Below, piece by piece: positions 2,368-18,830 of a DNA stretch of 22,458 nucleotides; the stretch's first letter is position 1; the number at the start of each line of letters is the position of its first letter. This DNA comes from a virus. Both the position numbers and the translations under genes were made by a program. Location of the stretch: IMG/VR virus record IMGVR_UViG_3300042691_020188, positions 1 to 22,458 of that record; one strand, written 5' to 3'. The notes under the pieces were generated by a model. The model was not told the origin of the DNA. It saw nothing but the letters and a program-made list of their open reading frames with translations, and did no database searches.

Positions 2368-2820
2368 ATGAAAATCGGACAGACCATCGACTTCATTAGG
2401 GACAACGAAAACCCAGTGAAGTCAAAGAACACCAGGACAATTGCGGCGGCGCTTTCATGCGGCTGCAAATTTGCGGAACGCTCGTTCCTTGACACCATCG
2501 AGCAGACCGATGCCGGTCCCAAACGGACAGTCACTTGGAACATGGACGGCGACCAGAAAGCCGTTTTTCGCCCAAACTTCCAAGAGGAGGCGCTTACCTT
2601 TACCGAGGTCCGCAAACGATACGAAGATTTACAGTGGTGCGAGGCAAATCCCGACCATCCGATTTCGTACCTTCGCGCGTTCAACGACAACTTGAACCGA
2701 CTCACGGATTTTGTGAAGCAAAGCAAACCGCTCGCGCTAATCCGGCGGGGAAACCGGATGGTCCTCATCCCTCAGGACTGCGACCAGGCTAAGAAGGAAA
2801 AGTTTCTCGCAATGCTATGA
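2368..2820 (+). CDS. Hypothetical tail-region protein
   Basis: A 150-residue protein from ATG 2368. It is mostly helical in its second half (EVRKRYEDLQWCEANPDHPISYLRAFNDNLNRL) and contains four cysteines (CGCKF near residues 31-33, then C91 and C138 approximately) without a recognisable metal site. No family is recognised. It sits between the tube-like genes and the chaperone G homologue and overlaps the latter by ATGA at 2817-2820. A structural or assembly role is the obvious guess but nothing in the protein proves it. Confidence 0.65.
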   Translation: MKIGQTIDFIRDNENPVKSKNTRTIAAALSCGCKFAERSFLDTIEQTDAGPKRTVTWNMDGDQKAVFRPNFQEEALTFTEVRKRYEDLQWCEANPDHPISYLRAFNDNLNRLTDFVKQSKPLALIRRGNRMVLIPQDCDQAKKEKFLAML

Positions 2821-3215
2821 ACCGCCCCAAAGAAAACGAAGCAGCATTTTCAGAAGGCGAGCAACAGGTCGGCAAACTGCGGCTCAGACCGTTCACCATC
2901 GGCACGCTTTCCATCTGTCGGCAATTAAAGCTCACGATGTTTATCGGATCCGAGGAGGGGACACCGGAGCTAGACCAGCAGCGGCAAATAATGGCATTTG
3001 CTTGGGCACAGTCCGCGCCCCTCGGGGAGGTGCTCCGATGCATCCGCACGGGCAAATGGGTGGAGGCCGTCGAGGAGTTTGAATTCACGATTGAACCCAG
3101 TCAGATCAATGAAATCGTTTCAGAGATCAACCGCATCTCACAGTCGGTCAAAGCGGCGGCGGTCGAAGTGGAGGAGAAGCCGGGGCACGGCACGGAGAAC
3201 GCGCCCCCAAACTGA
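2817..3215 (+). CDS. Tail assembly chaperone, short form (gpG-like)
   Basis: A 132-residue protein from ATG 2817 (ATGA overlap), ending at TGA 3213-3215. It has the size and layout of lambda gpG-type chaperones: an N-terminal segment with LRLRPFTIGTLSICRQL, a helical core and an acidic, low-complexity C-terminus (VEVEEKPGHGTENAPPN). These chaperones bind the tape measure protein during tail assembly and are absent from the virion. The last sense codons form the slippery heptamer C CCA AAC right before the stop, and the -1 frame continues as a conserved-looking protein to 3439. Identification rests on position two genes before the tape measure together with the frameshift signal. Confidence 0.75.
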   Translation: MNRPKENEAAFSEGEQQVGKLRLRPFTIGTLSICRQLKLTMFIGSEEGTPELDQQRQIMAFAWAQSAPLGEVLRCIRTGKWVEAVEEFEFTIEPSQINEIVSEINRISQSVKAAAVEVEEKPGHGTENAPPN

Positions 3216-3439
3216 TCAAGCCAGAGTATACGGCGGCGTTGACCTTTACTCTGGCGAAAGAAACCGGATGGACCGAAAACTTTATCCTTTGGCAACTGCC
3301 GATGAGTCGAGCGCTTCAGTATTACCACGCCGCACTCTGGAGCAACGGCGCTTGGACCGTTCCTCCGCGGGAAGCGCCCCGGGCGGAGTTGGAACAGCTT
3401 TTTCAGGCCTTTGACAACCTGAGCGACAACGATGATTAA
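2817..3439 (+). CDS. Tail assembly chaperone, frameshifted long form (gpGT-like)
   Basis: A -1 slip at 3206-3212 would join the 132 residues of the short form to about 75 residues read in the -1 frame (LIKPEYTAALTFTLAKETGWTENF... to TAA 3437-3439), giving a product of about 207 residues. The downstream part has no ATG; the first alternative start in that frame is TTG 3239, which lies inside the stimulatory stem, so independent initiation looks less likely than frameshifting. The T-like part contains FILWQLPMSRALQYYHAAL, a helical motif reminiscent of T domains that contact the tail tube protein. In lambda a few percent of ribosomes shift, and the G:GT ratio matters for tail assembly. Confidence 0.72.
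3206..3255 (+). promoter_or_regulatory. Programmed -1 ribosomal frameshift signal
   Basis: The heptamer CCCAAAC at 3206-3212 reads C CCA AAC in the upstream frame and fits the X XXY YYZ rule; the zero-frame TGA follows at once. After a 7-base spacer (3213-3219), GCCAGAGTA at 3220-3228 pairs perfectly with TACTCTGGC at 3247-3255 to give a 9-bp stem with an 18-base loop. Slippery site, spacer length, stem and an open -1 frame are all present, as in the G-GT switch known from lambda-like phages. Heptamer identity differs from lambda GGGAAAG. Confidence 0.8.
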
Positions 3440-4127
3440 GACCACCGTCAAAATGTCGCGTTTCTTTGACGCGCTGGATGCCTACAGCCAAGGATCCAAA
3501 AAGAGCTGGGAAACACTGTTTTTGAAGCAATGCGAGCAGATTGGGAAGCAGATTATAAAGGTGACTCCACCAATGCAGGCCAATAGACTCGGCAAAGATT
3601 CTTTTGCGACAGCAAAGAAGCGGGGACAGGCTGCGGTTCAGTCGGACATTCTTCGGGTTTTCAGTCCGTTCAATGAAAACTTTGCATCGCGCTTTCACGG
3701 GAAAGCTGTCGTCAAATTTGAGTGGGACATGGAGCGGATCCACATGCAAAATCGCGTTCGAGGTCGTGTAAAGGGGAAGGTTCGCGACATTCCAGCGGAG
3801 CAAGACATTTTGACCGCCTACATCAAGCGAAAAAAGAAAATGGTTGGGTATTTAGCATCGGGCTGGAATTCTTTAATAGGAAAAGCAAAAGTCACCGGCA
3901 TTCCAAACTGGATCAAAGACAAAAACGCAGGGGGTGCGGCGCAGATTGTCGCAAGTGACCGCATTTTAAAATTCTTAGCAACCAACAGCGCCCGATTTGC
4001 GTCCAACCTTCGCGGCATTGAGCGCTACATGCAAATTGCGGTTGATCAGCAGGCAATTAACCTTTGGAAGCAGGTGCGGCGAAATCAAGAAAGACTTCAG
4101 GCGCGGATGACAGCCAGGACAAAATAG
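3432..4127 (+). CDS. Hypothetical tail-region protein upstream of the tape measure
   Basis: A 231-residue, strongly basic protein from ATG 3432, overlapping the chaperone long form by eight bases. It contains helical segments (SWETLFLKQCEQIGKQIIKVTPP; SGWNSLIGKAKVTGIPNWI) and a basic C-terminal helix (LWKQVRRNQERLQARMTARTK). The phrase IKVTPPMQAN...A near the N-terminus is reminiscent of minor tail or HK97 gp10-like proteins, but its location after the chaperones is unusual for that family. Two bases separate it from the tape measure start. Function is not assigned beyond a probable tail role. Confidence 0.65.
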   Translation: MIKTTVKMSRFFDALDAYSQGSKKSWETLFLKQCEQIGKQIIKVTPPMQANRLGKDSFATAKKRGQAAVQSDILRVFSPFNENFASRFHGKAVVKFEWDMERIHMQNRVRGRVKGKVRDIPAEQDILTAYIKRKKKMVGYLASGWNSLIGKAKVTGIPNWIKDKNAGGAAQIVASDRILKFLATNSARFASNLRGIERYMQIAVDQQAINLWKQVRRNQERLQARMTARTK

Positions 4128-4128
4128 T

Positions 4129-5694
4129 ATGGCAATCCAAGTAGGTTTTGAAATCGACGTTGCAGGATTCAAACGCGGAATCGATCAGGTGCGGTCCGCG
4201 TCAGCAACTTTGCAGACTGGAATCGGCACGGCAATTAAAGGCGCCGCGGCGGCGTTTGCAGCAGGGTCTGCGGTCATTGTAGCGGCAGCGCATGGAATGT
4301 ACGACGCAATGAGCCAGGGCGGCGAATTGGTCGACCTTAGCGAACGCACCGGGCTTGCAATCGACAAGCTAATGGAATTGCAGTTTGCTTTCGACCAAGC
4401 TGGGATCGGGGCGGCGGAAGTCGGACCACTGGTCAACAAAGTGCAAAACGCCATTGCCGACGCAGCGGCAGGATCTGCGGCGGGGCAAAAGGTATTTGCT
4501 GACCTCGGGCTTTCCCTTGAGGAGCTGGGGACGATGGATGCGGCGGCGCAGATGGAAGCCATCGGGCAGGCAATTGCAGGCATCGAGGACCCCATTCGAC
4601 GGACACAGGCATCGATGGACATTTTCGGGAAGTCGGGCGGCAAAATGCTGGCGCTATTTGCAGCCGGAGGATCCGCTGAAGCCAAGGACGCACTTGGCAA
4701 GCAAGCCGAAGTCATGGCGAAAAACGCCGCCTATTTTGATTCGATTACCGACAAGCTCGGGACGGCGGCAATCAAGATCCGCGGACTTTTCATCGGCATG
4801 GCTGCGGAGCTTGTGCCGGATTTGCTCGATGCGGCAAACAGGTTGAACGCACTTGATTTTACCGACATTGGAAAATCAGTCGGATCCGCCGTGGCAACAA
4901 TTGTGGATTTATTCACAAGCGGAATGATTAGTGATGCTTTTTACATCGGATTGAAAATTGCGATTATGAAAATGATCAATTTATTTGTGCAGACTTTTGT
5001 AAACGCCGTCGCAATCATAGAAACTCCGCTTGTTGCGCTTTTTGCTTTTATTGTAAGCGCACTTGAAGACCCTTTGAAAATGGCGTTCAACAAAGCGGGA
5101 GCGGTGCTTTTAGAGGCAGCAGGCAAAACACTTGAAATGATTGGCGCTGGATTGCAAAAGTTTTCATCAACGCGAGAGCTTGGCAAATCAGTCACACAGA
5201 CAGGACTGGACACGCAATGGAAAGCGATCGACATGGAAACCGCAGCGGAAAACATCCAGGGCAATATGGGTGGATTTAGCGGCATCATGGAAAAAGCAAA
5301 ATCCGATGCGATTGAAATTGTCGGGATGATGTTTGAGGAGACACAAGGCATTGATTTGTTCAGCGACAAAACGAAAGCCGAACTTGAAGACCTGAAAACA
5401 ATTTGGCAGCAATCCCAGTCGTCCGCTCAATCGGCAAAAGACAAACTTGCGCCTGCTGAACCAAGAAAAGGAACCGGCGACGGATTGACTGTTGTCCCGC
5501 CAGCAGGCCGGGGGCAATCGTTTGAAGCAATTACCTCCTCAATGGCACGCATCGGCGGCGGCGGATTGACCGCGGGAATGTCGTTCACAGTGTCGCCAAT
5601 GGTGGACCAGCAAAAGGTCACTAACGGGCTTTTAAAGCAACAGAACGAGCTAATGCTCAGACAAGGACCAACCTCGGGCGTGATGCTCGCCTAA
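4129..5694 (+). CDS. Tail tape measure protein
   Basis: A 521-residue protein from ATG 4129 with no visible SD sequence. It is Ala/Gly/helix-rich, with an N-terminal opening typical of tape measures (VGFEIDVAGFKRGIDQVRSA), a small-residue hydrophobic stretch around residues 33-55, and a long hydrophobic region around 271-316 that could insert in the host membrane during DNA passage. The C-terminal part is Gln/Ser-rich and low in hydrophobicity. It directly follows the chaperone genes, as tape measures do. At roughly 0.15 nm per residue a fully extended helix would correspond to a tail near 78 nm, a rather short tail if the protein is not processed. Confidence 0.88.
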   Translation: MAIQVGFEIDVAGFKRGIDQVRSASATLQTGIGTAIKGAAAAFAAGSAVIVAAAHGMYDAMSQGGELVDLSERTGLAIDKLMELQFAFDQAGIGAAEVGPLVNKVQNAIADAAAGSAAGQKVFADLGLSLEELGTMDAAAQMEAIGQAIAGIEDPIRRTQASMDIFGKSGGKMLALFAAGGSAEAKDALGKQAEVMAKNAAYFDSITDKLGTAAIKIRGLFIGMAAELVPDLLDAANRLNALDFTDIGKSVGSAVATIVDLFTSGMISDAFYIGLKIAIMKMINLFVQTFVNAVAIIETPLVALFAFIVSALEDPLKMAFNKAGAVLLEAAGKTLEMIGAGLQKFSSTRELGKSVTQTGLDTQWKAIDMETAAENIQGNMGGFSGIMEKAKSDAIEIVGMMFEETQGIDLFSDKTKAELEDLKTIWQQSQSSAQSAKDKLAPAEPRKGTGDGLTVVPPAGRGQSFEAITSSMARIGGGGLTAGMSFTVSPMVDQQKVTNGLLKQQNELMLRQGPTSGVMLA

Positions 5695-8776: not shown

Positions 8777-9109
8777 ATGGCCGCAGGACTCTATAATTTC
8801 ACGATTGAAGAAGGCGCCGACCTCGCGTTCGGGGTCCGCGTCAAAATCAACGACGACCAGCAAAACCTTTCCGATTGGACGTTTAAAGCGCAGGTCCGCA
8901 CTGCGGTCGATGGGGAGCTGATCACAAACCTTTCGACGGAATTGTGCGAGGACAACGAGACGTTGCGGATAGGGCTGGACGGAGTCGTGACCGACGAGCT
9001 GGTCGGGCAAGCGGCACGCTGGGACCTTTTGGCGATTACAGGCGATGGGCGGCGGATCCGATTGGTTGAAGGACGCGTCACAATTTCGGGATCTGTTTCA
9101 GAATTATGA
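8777..9109 (+). CDS. Small phage protein preceding the fibre (beta-rich, tail-tip type)
   Basis: A 110-residue protein from ATG 8777; a TTG at 8765 is a possible but less likely start. The pattern [37 protein letters not shown]...[30 protein letters not shown] C-terminus matches a widespread small phage family (F.i.qGadf...v....g.p.dLtgy..raqiR....G.vtvs) found directly upstream of tail fibres. That family is structural; the exact role is unproven. AGAGG lies one base before the ATG, unusually close for an SD. It overlaps the fibre gene by ATGA at 9106-9109. Confidence 0.7.
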
Positions 9110-11682
9110 GCGACTGTCAAAACTGCAACAGCGAACAAGATATCATCGTCGTAGAGATTCTAGCGGGCGCACCAGGGGCTGCGGGCGGACCGCAGGGAGT
9201 GCAGGGTGCGACGGGCAGCACGGGGCAGCAAGGCCCTAGCGGCGTTCCATCCACTGTTGCGGGACCGCGCGGAAATACGGGCGCCACCGGACCGCAAGGG
9301 GTGCAGGGCAACGTGGGGGCGTCGGGCGCTACCGGACCGCAGGGGGTGCAAGGCGAGTCGGGTCCGGCTGGAGAGTCCATCGTCGGGGCGACGGGGCCAT
9401 CGGGGGCTCAGGGCGGACGCGGTGACACCGGCGAACGGGGCGCTACGGGTCCCGCCGGCGAGTCAGGACTTTCGGTGACCGGACCGTCGGGACCGCAGGG
9501 TGCCAAGGGTGATACCGGCGAACGCGGAGGAACGGGGCCAGCGGGCGCGTCGGGGTTATCCGTGACCGGACCCGCAGGGCCATCCGGCAGCGTGGGCGCT
9601 ACGGGCGCCAGCGGTCCGGCTGGAGCGTCGGGGTTGTCGATTACCGGACCATCGGGTCCTCGCGGAAATACCGGAGAGCGGGGCGCTACGGGTAGTACCG
9701 GACCACAAGGCCCTAGCGGACTTGCAATCACGGGGCCAAAGGGTGATACCGGAATTTCATTGCAGGGACCCAAGGGGGACACGGGGCAGCAGGGGCCGAC
9801 CGGCGCCAGCGGTCAGTCGATTGTCGGCGCTACGGGCGCCACAGGTGCGGCTTTTACGGGTGCAACCGGAAGTCGGGGCGCCACCGGATCTACGGGGCCA
9901 GTCGGGGCAAGCGGTCAATCAATTACCGGAAACACGGGTGCGTCGGGCGTCAAGGGTGACACCGGATTGCAGGGGCCTCAAGGCGCTACGGGTGCATCTG
10001 GGCAATCTATCGTAGGCGATACAGGTGCGAGCGGTTTGCAAGGCCCTTCGGGACTGTCGATTACCGGGGCCACCGGACCACAGGGCGCCACCGGAGCCAG
10101 CGGACAATCGGATCGCTACGCAACGACCTCAAGCACATCAATGTCGGTCGCTACCGGCGCAAAGACTTTTACGGTCGAGCAAAACCTGTCTTGGACTAAT
10201 TTGCAGCCAGTCGTGATTGCCAACGAGGCGGGGACGGCAAAAATGCAAGGCAGCATTTCGGGATACACCAAGGCGACCGGCGTGATGATTGCGAACGTGA
10301 CCAGCGTCACTGGCACGGGAACTTTTGCAGCGTGGCAGGTTAACCTCGACGGGATTGCGGGGGTGGCAGGGGAGACGGGGCCACAGGGCGCTACGGGTGC
10401 CACCGGACCAGTGTCCACCGTTGCAGGACCATCGGGTGCGACGGGCGCGACCGGACCAGCGTCCACAGTCTCGGGACCCTCGGGGGCAACGGGGCCTAGC
10501 GGCTTGCAGGGCTTGCAGGGGGTGCAGGGAAATACGGGTGCAACCGGACCAGTTTCAACGACTCCTGGAGCGACGGGCGCTACGGGGCCACAGGGCGACG
10601 CTGGGGCGGGTATCAACATCAAGGCGCCGGTGCGCGCAGCGACAACCCTCGCGTTAAACGCGACCAGTCAAAACAATCACCAATCGCTGATTGCGGTAAA
10701 TGCCGGGGCGCTTGTCATTGATAACATTTTGGTACAAGTCGACGATGAGGTGCTGATCAAAGACCAAGAAGACGCACGGCAAAATGGGATCTATGTCGTG
10801 ATTGACTCGGGCGGGGTGACCCCGTTCCACCTTGACCGCCGCGGCGACTCAAACACAAATTCAGAAATCAATCTGGGGGATGCAGTCTCTGTTTCCAGCG
10901 GGTTAGTCAATGAGGCGACGTCGTGGTATTTGGTCACAGGCGGCAACATCAACCTCGGCACAACGCCACTTGTTTGGGCGATTTACAGCAAAGTCGGAGC
11001 GACGGGCGCTACCGGACCGCAGGGAGCGACGGGTGCAGCATTTACGGGGGCGACCGGAGTTCAGGGCCCAATTGGAGCTTCAGGCATTGTTTCACCTGCA
11101 CTTTCAACTGCTATCCAATACAGCGGGACAGGATCACAGACGGCATTTACAAATTTGGGATCATCGTTTGCTGCTGAAGCGTACCTTGTCACCATTGACG
11201 GGGTACTGCAAAACCCGCGACTGGCTGGGACCGCTTACACCATTGGGTCAGCCAACAATGGCACAATTACATTTAATAGCGCCCCATCAAGCGGCTCGGA
11301 AATTATTGTCCGCTTAGTTTACGGCACGCCAGGCACGAACGGAACAAACGGAGCAACGGGCGCCACCGGAGCACAAGGACCGCAGGCGGCGGTCATTTCG
11401 CAACTTAATCAAACGAGCAGCTTTACAGTTGGAGAAACTCACCTCGGTAAATTAACAAGCTGCACTAGCGCAAACACCATTACAGTAACGCTTCCAGACA
11501 ACTCAGGCATTGTAGATGGATCGCAGTTTATGTTTGTGCGGCGAGGCGCGGGGCAGGTTGAATTTGTTTCAACTTTAACATTGATTGCGCCACAGGGTTA
11601 TCTTCTTTTCACCGTGGGATCCGTTGCAGTTGCAACAAAACTGTCATCAACGGAGTGGCTTATCACTGGCGACTTTCAATGA
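9106..11682 (+). CDS. Collagen-like tail fibre, multi-domain
   Basis: An 858-residue mosaic fibre starting at ATG 9106. Residues 1-20 (with CQNC and IIVVEIL) form a short N-terminal anchor. Gly-X-Y repeats, dominated by GATGPQG and GPSG units with few charged triplets, fill about 21-335, 417-503, 631-655 and 742-760. They are broken by four beta domains: 336-415 ([15 protein letters not shown]...GTFAAWQV), 503-629 (VRAATT...[19 protein letters not shown]), 665-741 ([13 protein letters not shown]...SGSEIIVRL) and 761-858 ([10 protein letters not shown]...[10 protein letters not shown]). All four are types commonly seen in phage tail fibres. The collagen stretches should trimerise into rods and the beta domains probably act as knobs or binding tips. 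Confidence 0.9.
9166..11060 (+). repeat. Collagen-coding degenerate DNA repeats
   Basis: Imperfect 9-base and longer units such as GGCGCTACGGGT, GCCACCGGA and GGACCGCAGGG recur through the collagen-coding parts, densest at 9166-10110 and 10366-10620. Codons vary between repeats, so the array is maintained at protein rather than DNA level, yet enough identity remains (repeats of 12 bases or more) to allow recombination and length change. Confidence 0.75.
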
Positions 11683-13811: not shown

Positions 13812-13984
13812 TGAACTACGCAATTTACGAAACCGCAACCGGACTGATTGCGAACATTTGCATTTGGGATGGGGAGGCTTACTGGCACCCAGGCGAAGGG
13901 CTCAACGTTGTTGCACTGGCCGACTCTGGCGCAGGCATTGGTTGGACCTACAGCAACGGCACTTTCAAACCACCCACTGAATGA
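13811..13984 (+). CDS. Small tail-accessory protein (57 residues)
   Basis: A 57-residue protein from ATG 13811 to TGA 13982-13984. It opens [30 protein letters not shown] and ends [16 protein letters not shown]. This layout (YAi.....G.v.Ni.iwDG...w.P.eG....v......IGW.Y..g.F..P) is a recurring small phage protein found beside fibre genes and as the tail of larger fibres. It may be a fibre accessory or assembly factor. It overlaps the next collagen gene by ATGA. The ATG directly abuts the adhesin stop, so coupled translation is likely. Confidence 0.75.
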
Positions 13985-14658
13985 GCTGTCCTCCATCATT
14001 AAAAACCGTTTGCGTTGAGATCCTCGAGGGACAGCGGGGACCGCAGGGATTGCAGGGTGTTCAAGGCATTCAGGGGCCGAGCGGACCAGTCGGAGCGTCG
14101 GGGCTATCCGTCAAAGGCGACACCGGCGAAGCATCGACCATTGCGGGCGCTACGGGGGCGACTGGCCCCGCTGGCGCATCGATCAAAGGGGACAGCGGCG
14201 AGCGCGGTGAAAAGGGCAGTACCGGGCAGCAGGGCATCCAAGGCATCCAAGGGGTGCAGGGCTTGCAAGGCAATGTCGGGGCCACCGGAAGCACCGGCCC
14301 AGCCGGGGCGGTCGGAGCGTCGGGGTTGTCAGTGACCGGCAGCACGGGCGCTACCGGAGCACAAGGCCCTTCGGGTGTTCCATCAACAGTTGCGGGACCT
14401 CAGGGGGCGACGGGCGCCACCGGACCAGTAGCGACGCCGGCTTTTGCTTGGGACCTAACGACCTCAAGCGGAGCGGCGCTTGAAACTCTTTCCATCAACG
14501 GCTTCACGACCGACGACATCCCGGCGCTTTACCACGTTTCAATTGATGGCGTGAATCAGCACGCCGACGCTTACACGCTCGCCGGCGGGATCCTGACCTT
14601 TGCAGAGACGGTTGACGCGGCCGCACAGGTAGAAGTCAAAAGACCCAAACTCGTATGA
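13981..14658 (+). CDS. Second, short collagen-like tail fibre
   Basis: A 225-residue protein from ATG 13981. The N-terminus ([16 protein letters not shown]) repeats the VEIL.G anchor of the larger fibre at 9106, so both probably attach to the same partner. Gly-X-Y repeats run from about residue 16 to 150 and include charged triplets (GERGEKG, GDTGEAS). The C-terminal 75 residues form a compact domain with [36 protein letters not shown], related in pattern to the SIDGVLQ-type domain inside the large fibre. It overlaps the first lysis-region gene by ATGA. Confidence 0.88.
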
Positions 14659-17699: not shown

Positions 17700-18830
17700 A
17701 TGAGATTCCACATTCCCGGGCTTGCCCATACCGTAACCGAGTCAAGCCAGTACAGCGCATGCGCGTTCACTCAAAAGGTTTTCAAACTTTGCGGCATGCT
17801 GAAGGGGCTCGGGCATCACGTCATCCACTACGGGCACGAACGCTCGACCGTTGACTGTTCGGAGCATGTGACCGTGACCAATGATGAGGTTCTGCGGGAG
17901 GCGTACGGGGATTACAACTGGCGAAAAGAATTCTTTAAACACGACCAGAATGATCACGCTTTCCGCGTGCATGCTGAAAATACCGTGCAGGCAATTCAAC
18001 ACCGGAAGCGCCCCAACGACTTTTTATTGTTACCCTTCGGCTGGGGACACAAGCGGATTGCCGACGCGCACAAGGATCTGATTTGCGTCGAGTCGGGGAT
18101 CGGATACAGCGATTCATTTGCTCAATTTAAAATCTTTGAATCCTACGCGCTGATGCACGCGTTTCACGGGACGGAATTCGTGCGGGAGGCAAAAATGGGT
18201 TTTTACAATTCATTCGTGGTCCCAAACCATTTCGACCCGGAGGACTTTAGTTTCAAGCTCGAGCGGGAGGACTGGATTCTTTACCTCGGGCGCATGACGC
18301 AGGGCAAAGGGCTCCACATCATCCTCGACGCAACGCGGAGGGCGGGAAAGCGGCTTATCGTCGCAGGGCAGGGCGATTTCAAGGACATCCCATACACCGG
18401 ATCAATGGATCATGTGGAGTACGTCGGATATGCGGATCGCGAGAAGCGTCGGGACTTAATGAGCCGATGCGGGGCGCTAATCATCCTCTCGCAATACATC
18501 GAACCGTTCGGTGGCGTGGCGGTGGAGGCGATGATGAGTGGGGCGCCGGTGATCGCGTCGGATTGGGGGGTATTTCCTGAAACCATCCGGCACGGGGAGA
18601 CGGGCTATCGGGTGCGGACGATGGAAGACACCGTATGGGCGCTTAAAAACGTGGGGCGCATCTCTCCTACTGTTTGCCGAGATTGGGCTGTGAAAAACTA
18701 CAGCAACGAGCGGGTTGGGCGGATGTATAACGAAGTTTTCCGCAAGATCCTCGATATTTACGACGGGAGCGGCGGATGGTACGCAGAACGACCGGAGCGC
18801 ACCGACCTCGAGTGGCTTCGGAAATATTGA
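17700..18830 (+). CDS. GT4-family glycosyltransferase
   Basis: A 376-residue protein from ATG 17700, without a visible SD. The C-terminal half is typical GT-B/GT4: ILYLGRMTQGKGLHIILDA (about 199-217), a Val-Glu-Tyr-Val-Gly turn, and the E-x7-E signature E268-PFGGVAV-E276 followed by AMMSGAPVIASDWGVFPETI. The N-terminal half includes HIPGLAHT and VESGIGYSD, the acceptor-side domain. It should use a nucleotide-sugar donor, but neither donor nor acceptor can be told. Possible targets are phage DNA bases, virion proteins or the host surface. No sugar-nucleotide synthesis gene is seen in the window. Confidence 0.88.
   Translation: MRFHIPGLAHTVTESSQYSACAFTQKVFKLCGMLKGLGHHVIHYGHERSTVDCSEHVTVTNDEVLREAYGDYNWRKEFFKHDQNDHAFRVHAENTVQAIQHRKRPNDFLLLPFGWGHKRIADAHKDLICVESGIGYSDSFAQFKIFESYALMHAFHGTEFVREAKMGFYNSFVVPNHFDPEDFSFKLEREDWILYLGRMTQGKGLHIILDATRRAGKRLIVAGQGDFKDIPYTGSMDHVEYVGYADREKRRDLMSRCGALIILSQYIEPFGGVAVEAMMSGAPVIASDWGVFPETIRHGETGYRVRTMEDTVWALKNVGRISPTVCRDWAVKNYSNERVGRMYNEVFRKILDIYDGSGGWYAERPERTDLEWLRKY

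Follow-up and report, generated by a model that had tools for sequence, protein, structure and literature searches.

A CCCAAAC heptamer in the window (the whole stretch of DNA analyzed here, a 22,458-base metagenomic contig record of an uncultivated virus) is, with high confidence from comparison with its relatives, a −1 programmed ribosomal frameshift site, through which a single start codon would serve a pair of tail assembly chaperones. Frameshifted phage tail chaperones are a known phenomenon, and the signal described here, judged from the conservation of its elements, is a strongly conserved one of a known kind, located in a chaperone-like family that is named by none of the searched libraries.

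Layout of the G–T junction

The features of the window described below are all on the + strand. The short form of the putative chaperone, G (positions 2817–3215), is a zero-frame open reading frame (ORF) of 132 aa, whose ATG start codon shares bases with the stop codon of the preceding ORF (ATGA). The last codons of G are CCC (3204–3206), CCA, AAC (3210–3212) and TGA (3213–3215), and the slippery heptamer, C_CCA_AAC, occupies 3206–3212. Since the first base of the heptamer is a third codon position, both tRNAs would be able to re-pair one base back. The TGA directly abuts the heptamer and is included in a 7-nt spacer (TGATCAA, 3213–3219), which is of equal length in the aligned relatives. The hairpin consists of a 5′ arm (GCCAGAGTA, 3220–3228), an 18-nt loop (3229–3246) and a 3′ arm (TACTCTGGC, 3247–3255), the arms forming nine Watson–Crick pairs that start 7 nt past the heptamer. 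T, the −1-frame extension (3212–3439), has 75 codons plus TAA; it opens with CTG (3212), ATC and AAG and closes with the TAA at 3437–3439. Fusion of G and T gives 132 + 75 = 207 residues, with PPN-LIK at the junction. The heptamer, TGA, spacer length, stem, loop, the end of the −1 frame at 3439 and the 207-residue product had all been given in the preliminary description, and each was found to be exact to the base. Of the 217 heptamers of the form XXXYYYZ that the two strands of the window contain, five were directly followed by a stop codon, and CCCAAAC at 3206–3212 was the only one to combine a direct stop with a 9-bp Watson–Crick stem located 4–9 nt downstream.

In the mechanism that we propose, most ribosomes would translate C_CCA_AAC without shifting and stop at the TGA beside it, releasing the 132-aa G. 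A minority, delayed by the hairpin 7 nt downstream, would slip back by one base (CCA to CCC and AAC to AAA), pass the stop codon and continue in the −1 frame to produce the 207-aa GT. On the lambda model, the tape measure protein would be coated by G, and the T part would serve to bring in the tail tube protein. That the shift takes place during translation, and often enough to be useful, is our inference, as are the ratio of G to GT and the function as chaperones.

Relatives were collected by protein searches. The search with G detected six close relatives in viral contigs, and an alignment-based search with G added more distant ones, including two Akkermansiaceae genome assemblies. The T protein matched about 150–230 viral loci per scan; the 80 best matches of each scan were taken, and together these were reduced to 128 distinct sites. 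The preliminary description had proposed a complete −1 frameshift signal in a G/GT-type gene pair. This proposal was borne out by the heptamer, present at 128 of the 128 sites, and by covariation of the stem, the chaperone label being drawn from gene order and layout. It had also presented so clean a set of components as a rarity, but in the G/T family of the window such a set is the rule.

Chaperone-like identity of G and GT

A chaperone role for G/GT is likely by analogy, as suggested by the order of the genes, the two-frame arrangement and weak similarities of fold. The tape measure protein gene is located at 4129–5694 and matched PHROG tape measure families (best E value, 2.1e-16). A layout in which a short and a frameshift-extended product arise from one start codon is present in the window and conserved in the relatives. 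Neither G nor T had a significant match in Pfam, PHROGs or cultured phage genomes, and nothing convincing was obtained for T in NCBIfam; the best T family match was phrog_978 (E value, 0.038), which was detected in one of 42 T members. Sequence and fold searches of the PDB returned no matches. The AlphaFold models were confident for both G (pLDDT 84.7) and T (pLDDT 88.6), but all their fold matches were weak, those to named chaperones having E values above 0.1: among them, G resembled a tail assembly chaperone from a Gordonia phage, and T a tape-measure chaperone from a Burkholderia phage. As neither protein belongs to a named family by sequence, the chaperone label is an assignment by layout and position. 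Known tail chaperones share little sequence with each other, and the missing family match is therefore compatible with the analogy.

In lambda G/GT (J02459), as proposed for the window, ribosomes slip by −1 on an X_XXY_YYZ heptamer shortly before a short ORF ends, so that a short and a longer protein are made, and the tape measure gene lies downstream. The annotations of P2 E/E+E′ (AF063097) and HK97 gp13/gp14 (AF069529) likewise show chaperone pairs with a −1 frameshift ahead of the tape measure gene. It is unlikely that the frameshift is real but that G/GT constitute some other structural or assembly pair of the phage; the lack of a significant chaperone-family match and the weakness of all fold matches are compatible with such a pair, but lambda, HK97 and P2 likewise place a two-frame gene shortly before the tape measure gene, and named phage chaperones of the tail or the tape measure are among the weak fold matches of both proteins. 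If G and GT are tail chaperones, as we favor, the frameshift signal would offer a sequence signature for spotting such proteins in uncultivated phages, including those with relatives in Verrucomicrobiota assemblies.

The window also differs from these phages in several respects. No sequence similarity was found between lambda G/T and G/T of the window, and the tape measure gene comes directly next in lambda and P2, whereas a 231-aa ORF intervenes in the window. This ORF (3432–4127) had no Pfam or PHROG match. The lambda site is GGGAAAG, with a stop codon 15 nt past the heptamer and a longest stem of 6 bp, and the P2 site is TTTTTTG, with a stop codon at 18 nt and nothing comparable to the stem, whereas the window has CCCAAAC, a distance of 0 nt and a covarying 9-bp stem. 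The composite of an AAC heptamer, an abutting stop and a covarying hairpin was absent from the lambda and P2 sites compared. The heptamer of HK97 (AF069529) was not located by a scripted search.

Several other genes of the window drew our attention. The tail tube gene was not found by a family search of the window. Two adjacent proteins of about 104 aa (1707–2018 and 2021–2335), both beginning with MP(S/A)..G, are weak paralogs (BLASTP E value, 5e-4) and possibly represent a duplicated tail protein, neither having a convincing family match. Two separate ORFs (9106–11682 and 13981–14658) matched the same tail-fibre families (phrog_819, 5073, 6320 and others), as if a fibre module had been duplicated. 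The ORF at 17700–18830 gave a near full-length match to the phage glycosyltransferase family phrog_3408 (E value, 9e-111).

Conservation of the slippery heptamer and the T frame

At all 128 distinct sites among the matches listed, a heptamer in the correct register is present, and T starts 6 nt beyond its first base. The heptamers at these 128 sites were GGGAAAC (42), GGGAAAG (39), CCCAAAC (34), AAAAAAC (9), CCCAAAA (3) and GGGAAAA (1). On a tree of G and T, which was built by a quick method and contains several long branches, at least 10 swaps of the first triplet among CCC, GGG and AAA could be counted. Since each swap replaces three bases and alters a residue of G, it is slipperiness, and not the protein sequence, that is conserved. 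The preliminary description had called for an alignment of related phages, and had named the finding of relatives with the stem but with no slippery site as evidence against a frameshift. In the alignment, the stem covaried and the heptamer switched its triplet but stayed slippery, and the heptamer was kept in 128/128 among the matches listed. A literature search, which depends on the spelling of the motif, found no CCCAAAC reported as a frameshift site. A divergent T relative (L309, match at 953) had no homotriplet heptamer in the scanned region.

Heptamer composition also bears on transcriptional slippage, in which RNA polymerase would stutter on the C5 run (3204–3208) or on A runs and the altered mRNA would then be read normally. 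Five C residues do precede AAAC in the window, and C7 or A6 runs occur in a few relatives, but at GGGAAAC, the heptamer found most often, runs of more than three are unusual, which makes slippage of the polymerase highly unlikely. Moreover, it is on the ribosome that the conserved register, the hairpin downstream and the neighboring stop codon all act.

The T frame is a conserved coding sequence that has no start codon of its own. In the window, no ATG, GTG or TTG was found in the −1 frame from the preceding stop codon to the junction, and the first start candidate in this frame is a TTG at 3239, which already lies within the conserved T domain. Among the 128 sites of the matches listed, none had one of these codons within the 12 codons upstream of T, and the T open frame was entirely devoid of them at 114 of the 128. 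As T lacks a start codon of its own, it would be reached by the shift. Re-initiation or internal initiation after termination of G, giving T as a separate protein and no fusion, could be imagined from the position of T, which lies in another frame and begins beside the G stop codon, and from a non-standard CTG (3212–3214) that overlaps the TGA. However, besides the lack of an upstream start codon at any of the 128 sites, a start at the TTG at 3239 would remove conserved T residues, and the conserved heptamer and its triplet swaps would be left unexplained, so that we regard a separate T as extremely improbable. A sequencing or assembly error, or decay of a gene in which G and T once formed one frame, might be suspected of an uncultivated metagenomic contig, but is refuted, as 128 distinct sites drawn from many different metagenomes share the two-frame layout, which two Akkermansiaceae assemblies have as well.

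The abutting stop, the hairpin and the two kinds of site

A stop codon directly followed the heptamer at 79 of 89 AAC/AAA sites, and was one codon later at 8 and 30 nt away at 2, whereas all 39 GGGAAAG sites had the stop one codon later. In two published phage sets, the mean distance of the stop past the heptamer was 26 and 36 nt (PMC10885494). The identity of the stop was unconstrained across sites (TAA, TGA or TAG). At gap-0 sites, the leucine codon of T overlapping the stop was CTA in 53 cases, CTG in 23 and CTC or CTT in none, although CTC and CTT make up 62% of the CTN leucine codons in the same contigs. This bias in codon choice indicates that the stop itself, beyond the T codons, is under selection; the sites share ancestry, and the counts thus do not amount to a formal probability. 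Two relatives, L157 and L159 (T at 2501), carry GGGAAAC and retain the hairpin with the zero-frame stop 30 nt off, so the abutting stop is dispensable.

A stop placed right after a slippery site exposes the ribosome to the release factor before slipping, and the release factor competes with the shift, lowering frameshifting (PMC4373837). The possible gain in efficiency that the preliminary description attributed to the abutting stop is unsupported. The HIV-1 site with an engineered stop resembles the window in that the stop directly follows the heptamer, and the release factor competes where tested (PMC4373837), but it involves eukaryotic ribosomes and unrelated genes, and the likeness is one of architecture only. 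The AAC codon is a weak slip site, A_AAA_AAC slipping less than A_AAA_AAG in E. coli (PMC5009743). Because of these two properties, we infer that the abutting stop probably serves as a competing in-frame exit, at which binding of the release factor would help to set the G:GT ratio, and that the hairpin may offset the weakly slippery AAC. The same A-site codon is found in the g-t frameshift of the haloarchaeal viruses HCTV-1 and HCTV-2 (G_GGA_AAC and A_AAA_AAC; PMC5009743), whose hosts are archaeal. With more than 100 natural versions of the site, which differ in their heptamer, hairpin and stop distance although the protein can still be aligned, the contribution of each element becomes testable, as does the reason for keeping the stop directly after the slippery site in the G/T family.

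A structure 5–9 nt downstream is a common but not obligatory feature of −1 frameshift sites, and certain tailed phages, according to a review, seemingly shift with no stimulatory signal; in the window, a 7-nt spacer precedes the stem. The predicted RNA fold of 3213–3270 had an energy of −16.5 kcal/mol (z = −2.27 against dinucleotide shuffles), and the 36-nt hairpin reached z = −4.2 against a null in which the T protein was kept and synonymous codons were shuffled. Across relatives, z under the synonymous-codon null averaged −3.3 over 49 distinct AAC sites, as against −0.5 over 8 AAG sites. The hairpin was found in the same alignment columns in most AAC/AAA members; in a few GGGAAAC relatives (L095, L139, L200 and L202), the stem was absent from the canonical columns. 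In 49 diverse sequences, 90% of the stem cells were paired, as compared with 32–43% when the partners were slid, and both sides were altered in 39 cells. The covariation score was 0.342 versus 0.181 in shuffles, none of 500 shuffles being as high. These data indicate that the stem is under selection. E. coli dnaX likewise has a heptamer followed by a hairpin, together with an upstream Shine–Dalgarno stimulator (PMC3711429), whereas none is selected in the family of the window: GGAG/GAGG was no commoner than predicted from synonymous codon choice (Wilcoxon p = 0.76).

The GGGAAAG members, which form one single clade on the tree, were without the canonical stem. As a whole, the comparison is suggestive of AAC sites having the hairpin and AAG sites mostly lacking it, the association being graded as suggestive because at most about four independent contrasts are available, none of them opposite and their number far from sufficient for significance; the strict criterion by which stems were called for these contrasts is noisy, scoring 44 of 94 AAC/AAA sites as stem-bearing. 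The wider family may, as a tentative and somewhat doubtful possibility, contain two designs of chaperone frameshift: AAG alone, with no hairpin and a stop at least one codon away, versus AAC with a co-selected hairpin and abutting stop, in which slippage would partly occur while the stop occupies the A site, and the G:GT ratio would be set by competition with the release factor. A host tRNA-Lys(CUU) was considered as a cause of AAC versus AAG, but in a pattern search of a small sample its gene was present in both GGGAAAG Akkermansiaceae assemblies and in several AAC hosts, and thus fails to separate them.

A second large group of viral contigs had mostly AAAAAAG, with the stop 27–30 nt away, and no structure (mean z of +0.8 over 49 sites). 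Among the divergent Verrucomicrobiota loci, the AAG loci L283, L285, L288, L289, L294 and L296 had no structure beyond the null, and the AAC loci L286, L287, L291, L292 and L295 had a predicted hairpin from 6–7 nt downstream. In two of these genome loci, L294 (match at 1501) and L296 (reverse strand), the AAG heptamer is directly followed by TAG, indicating that an abutting stop is also found without AAC or a hairpin.
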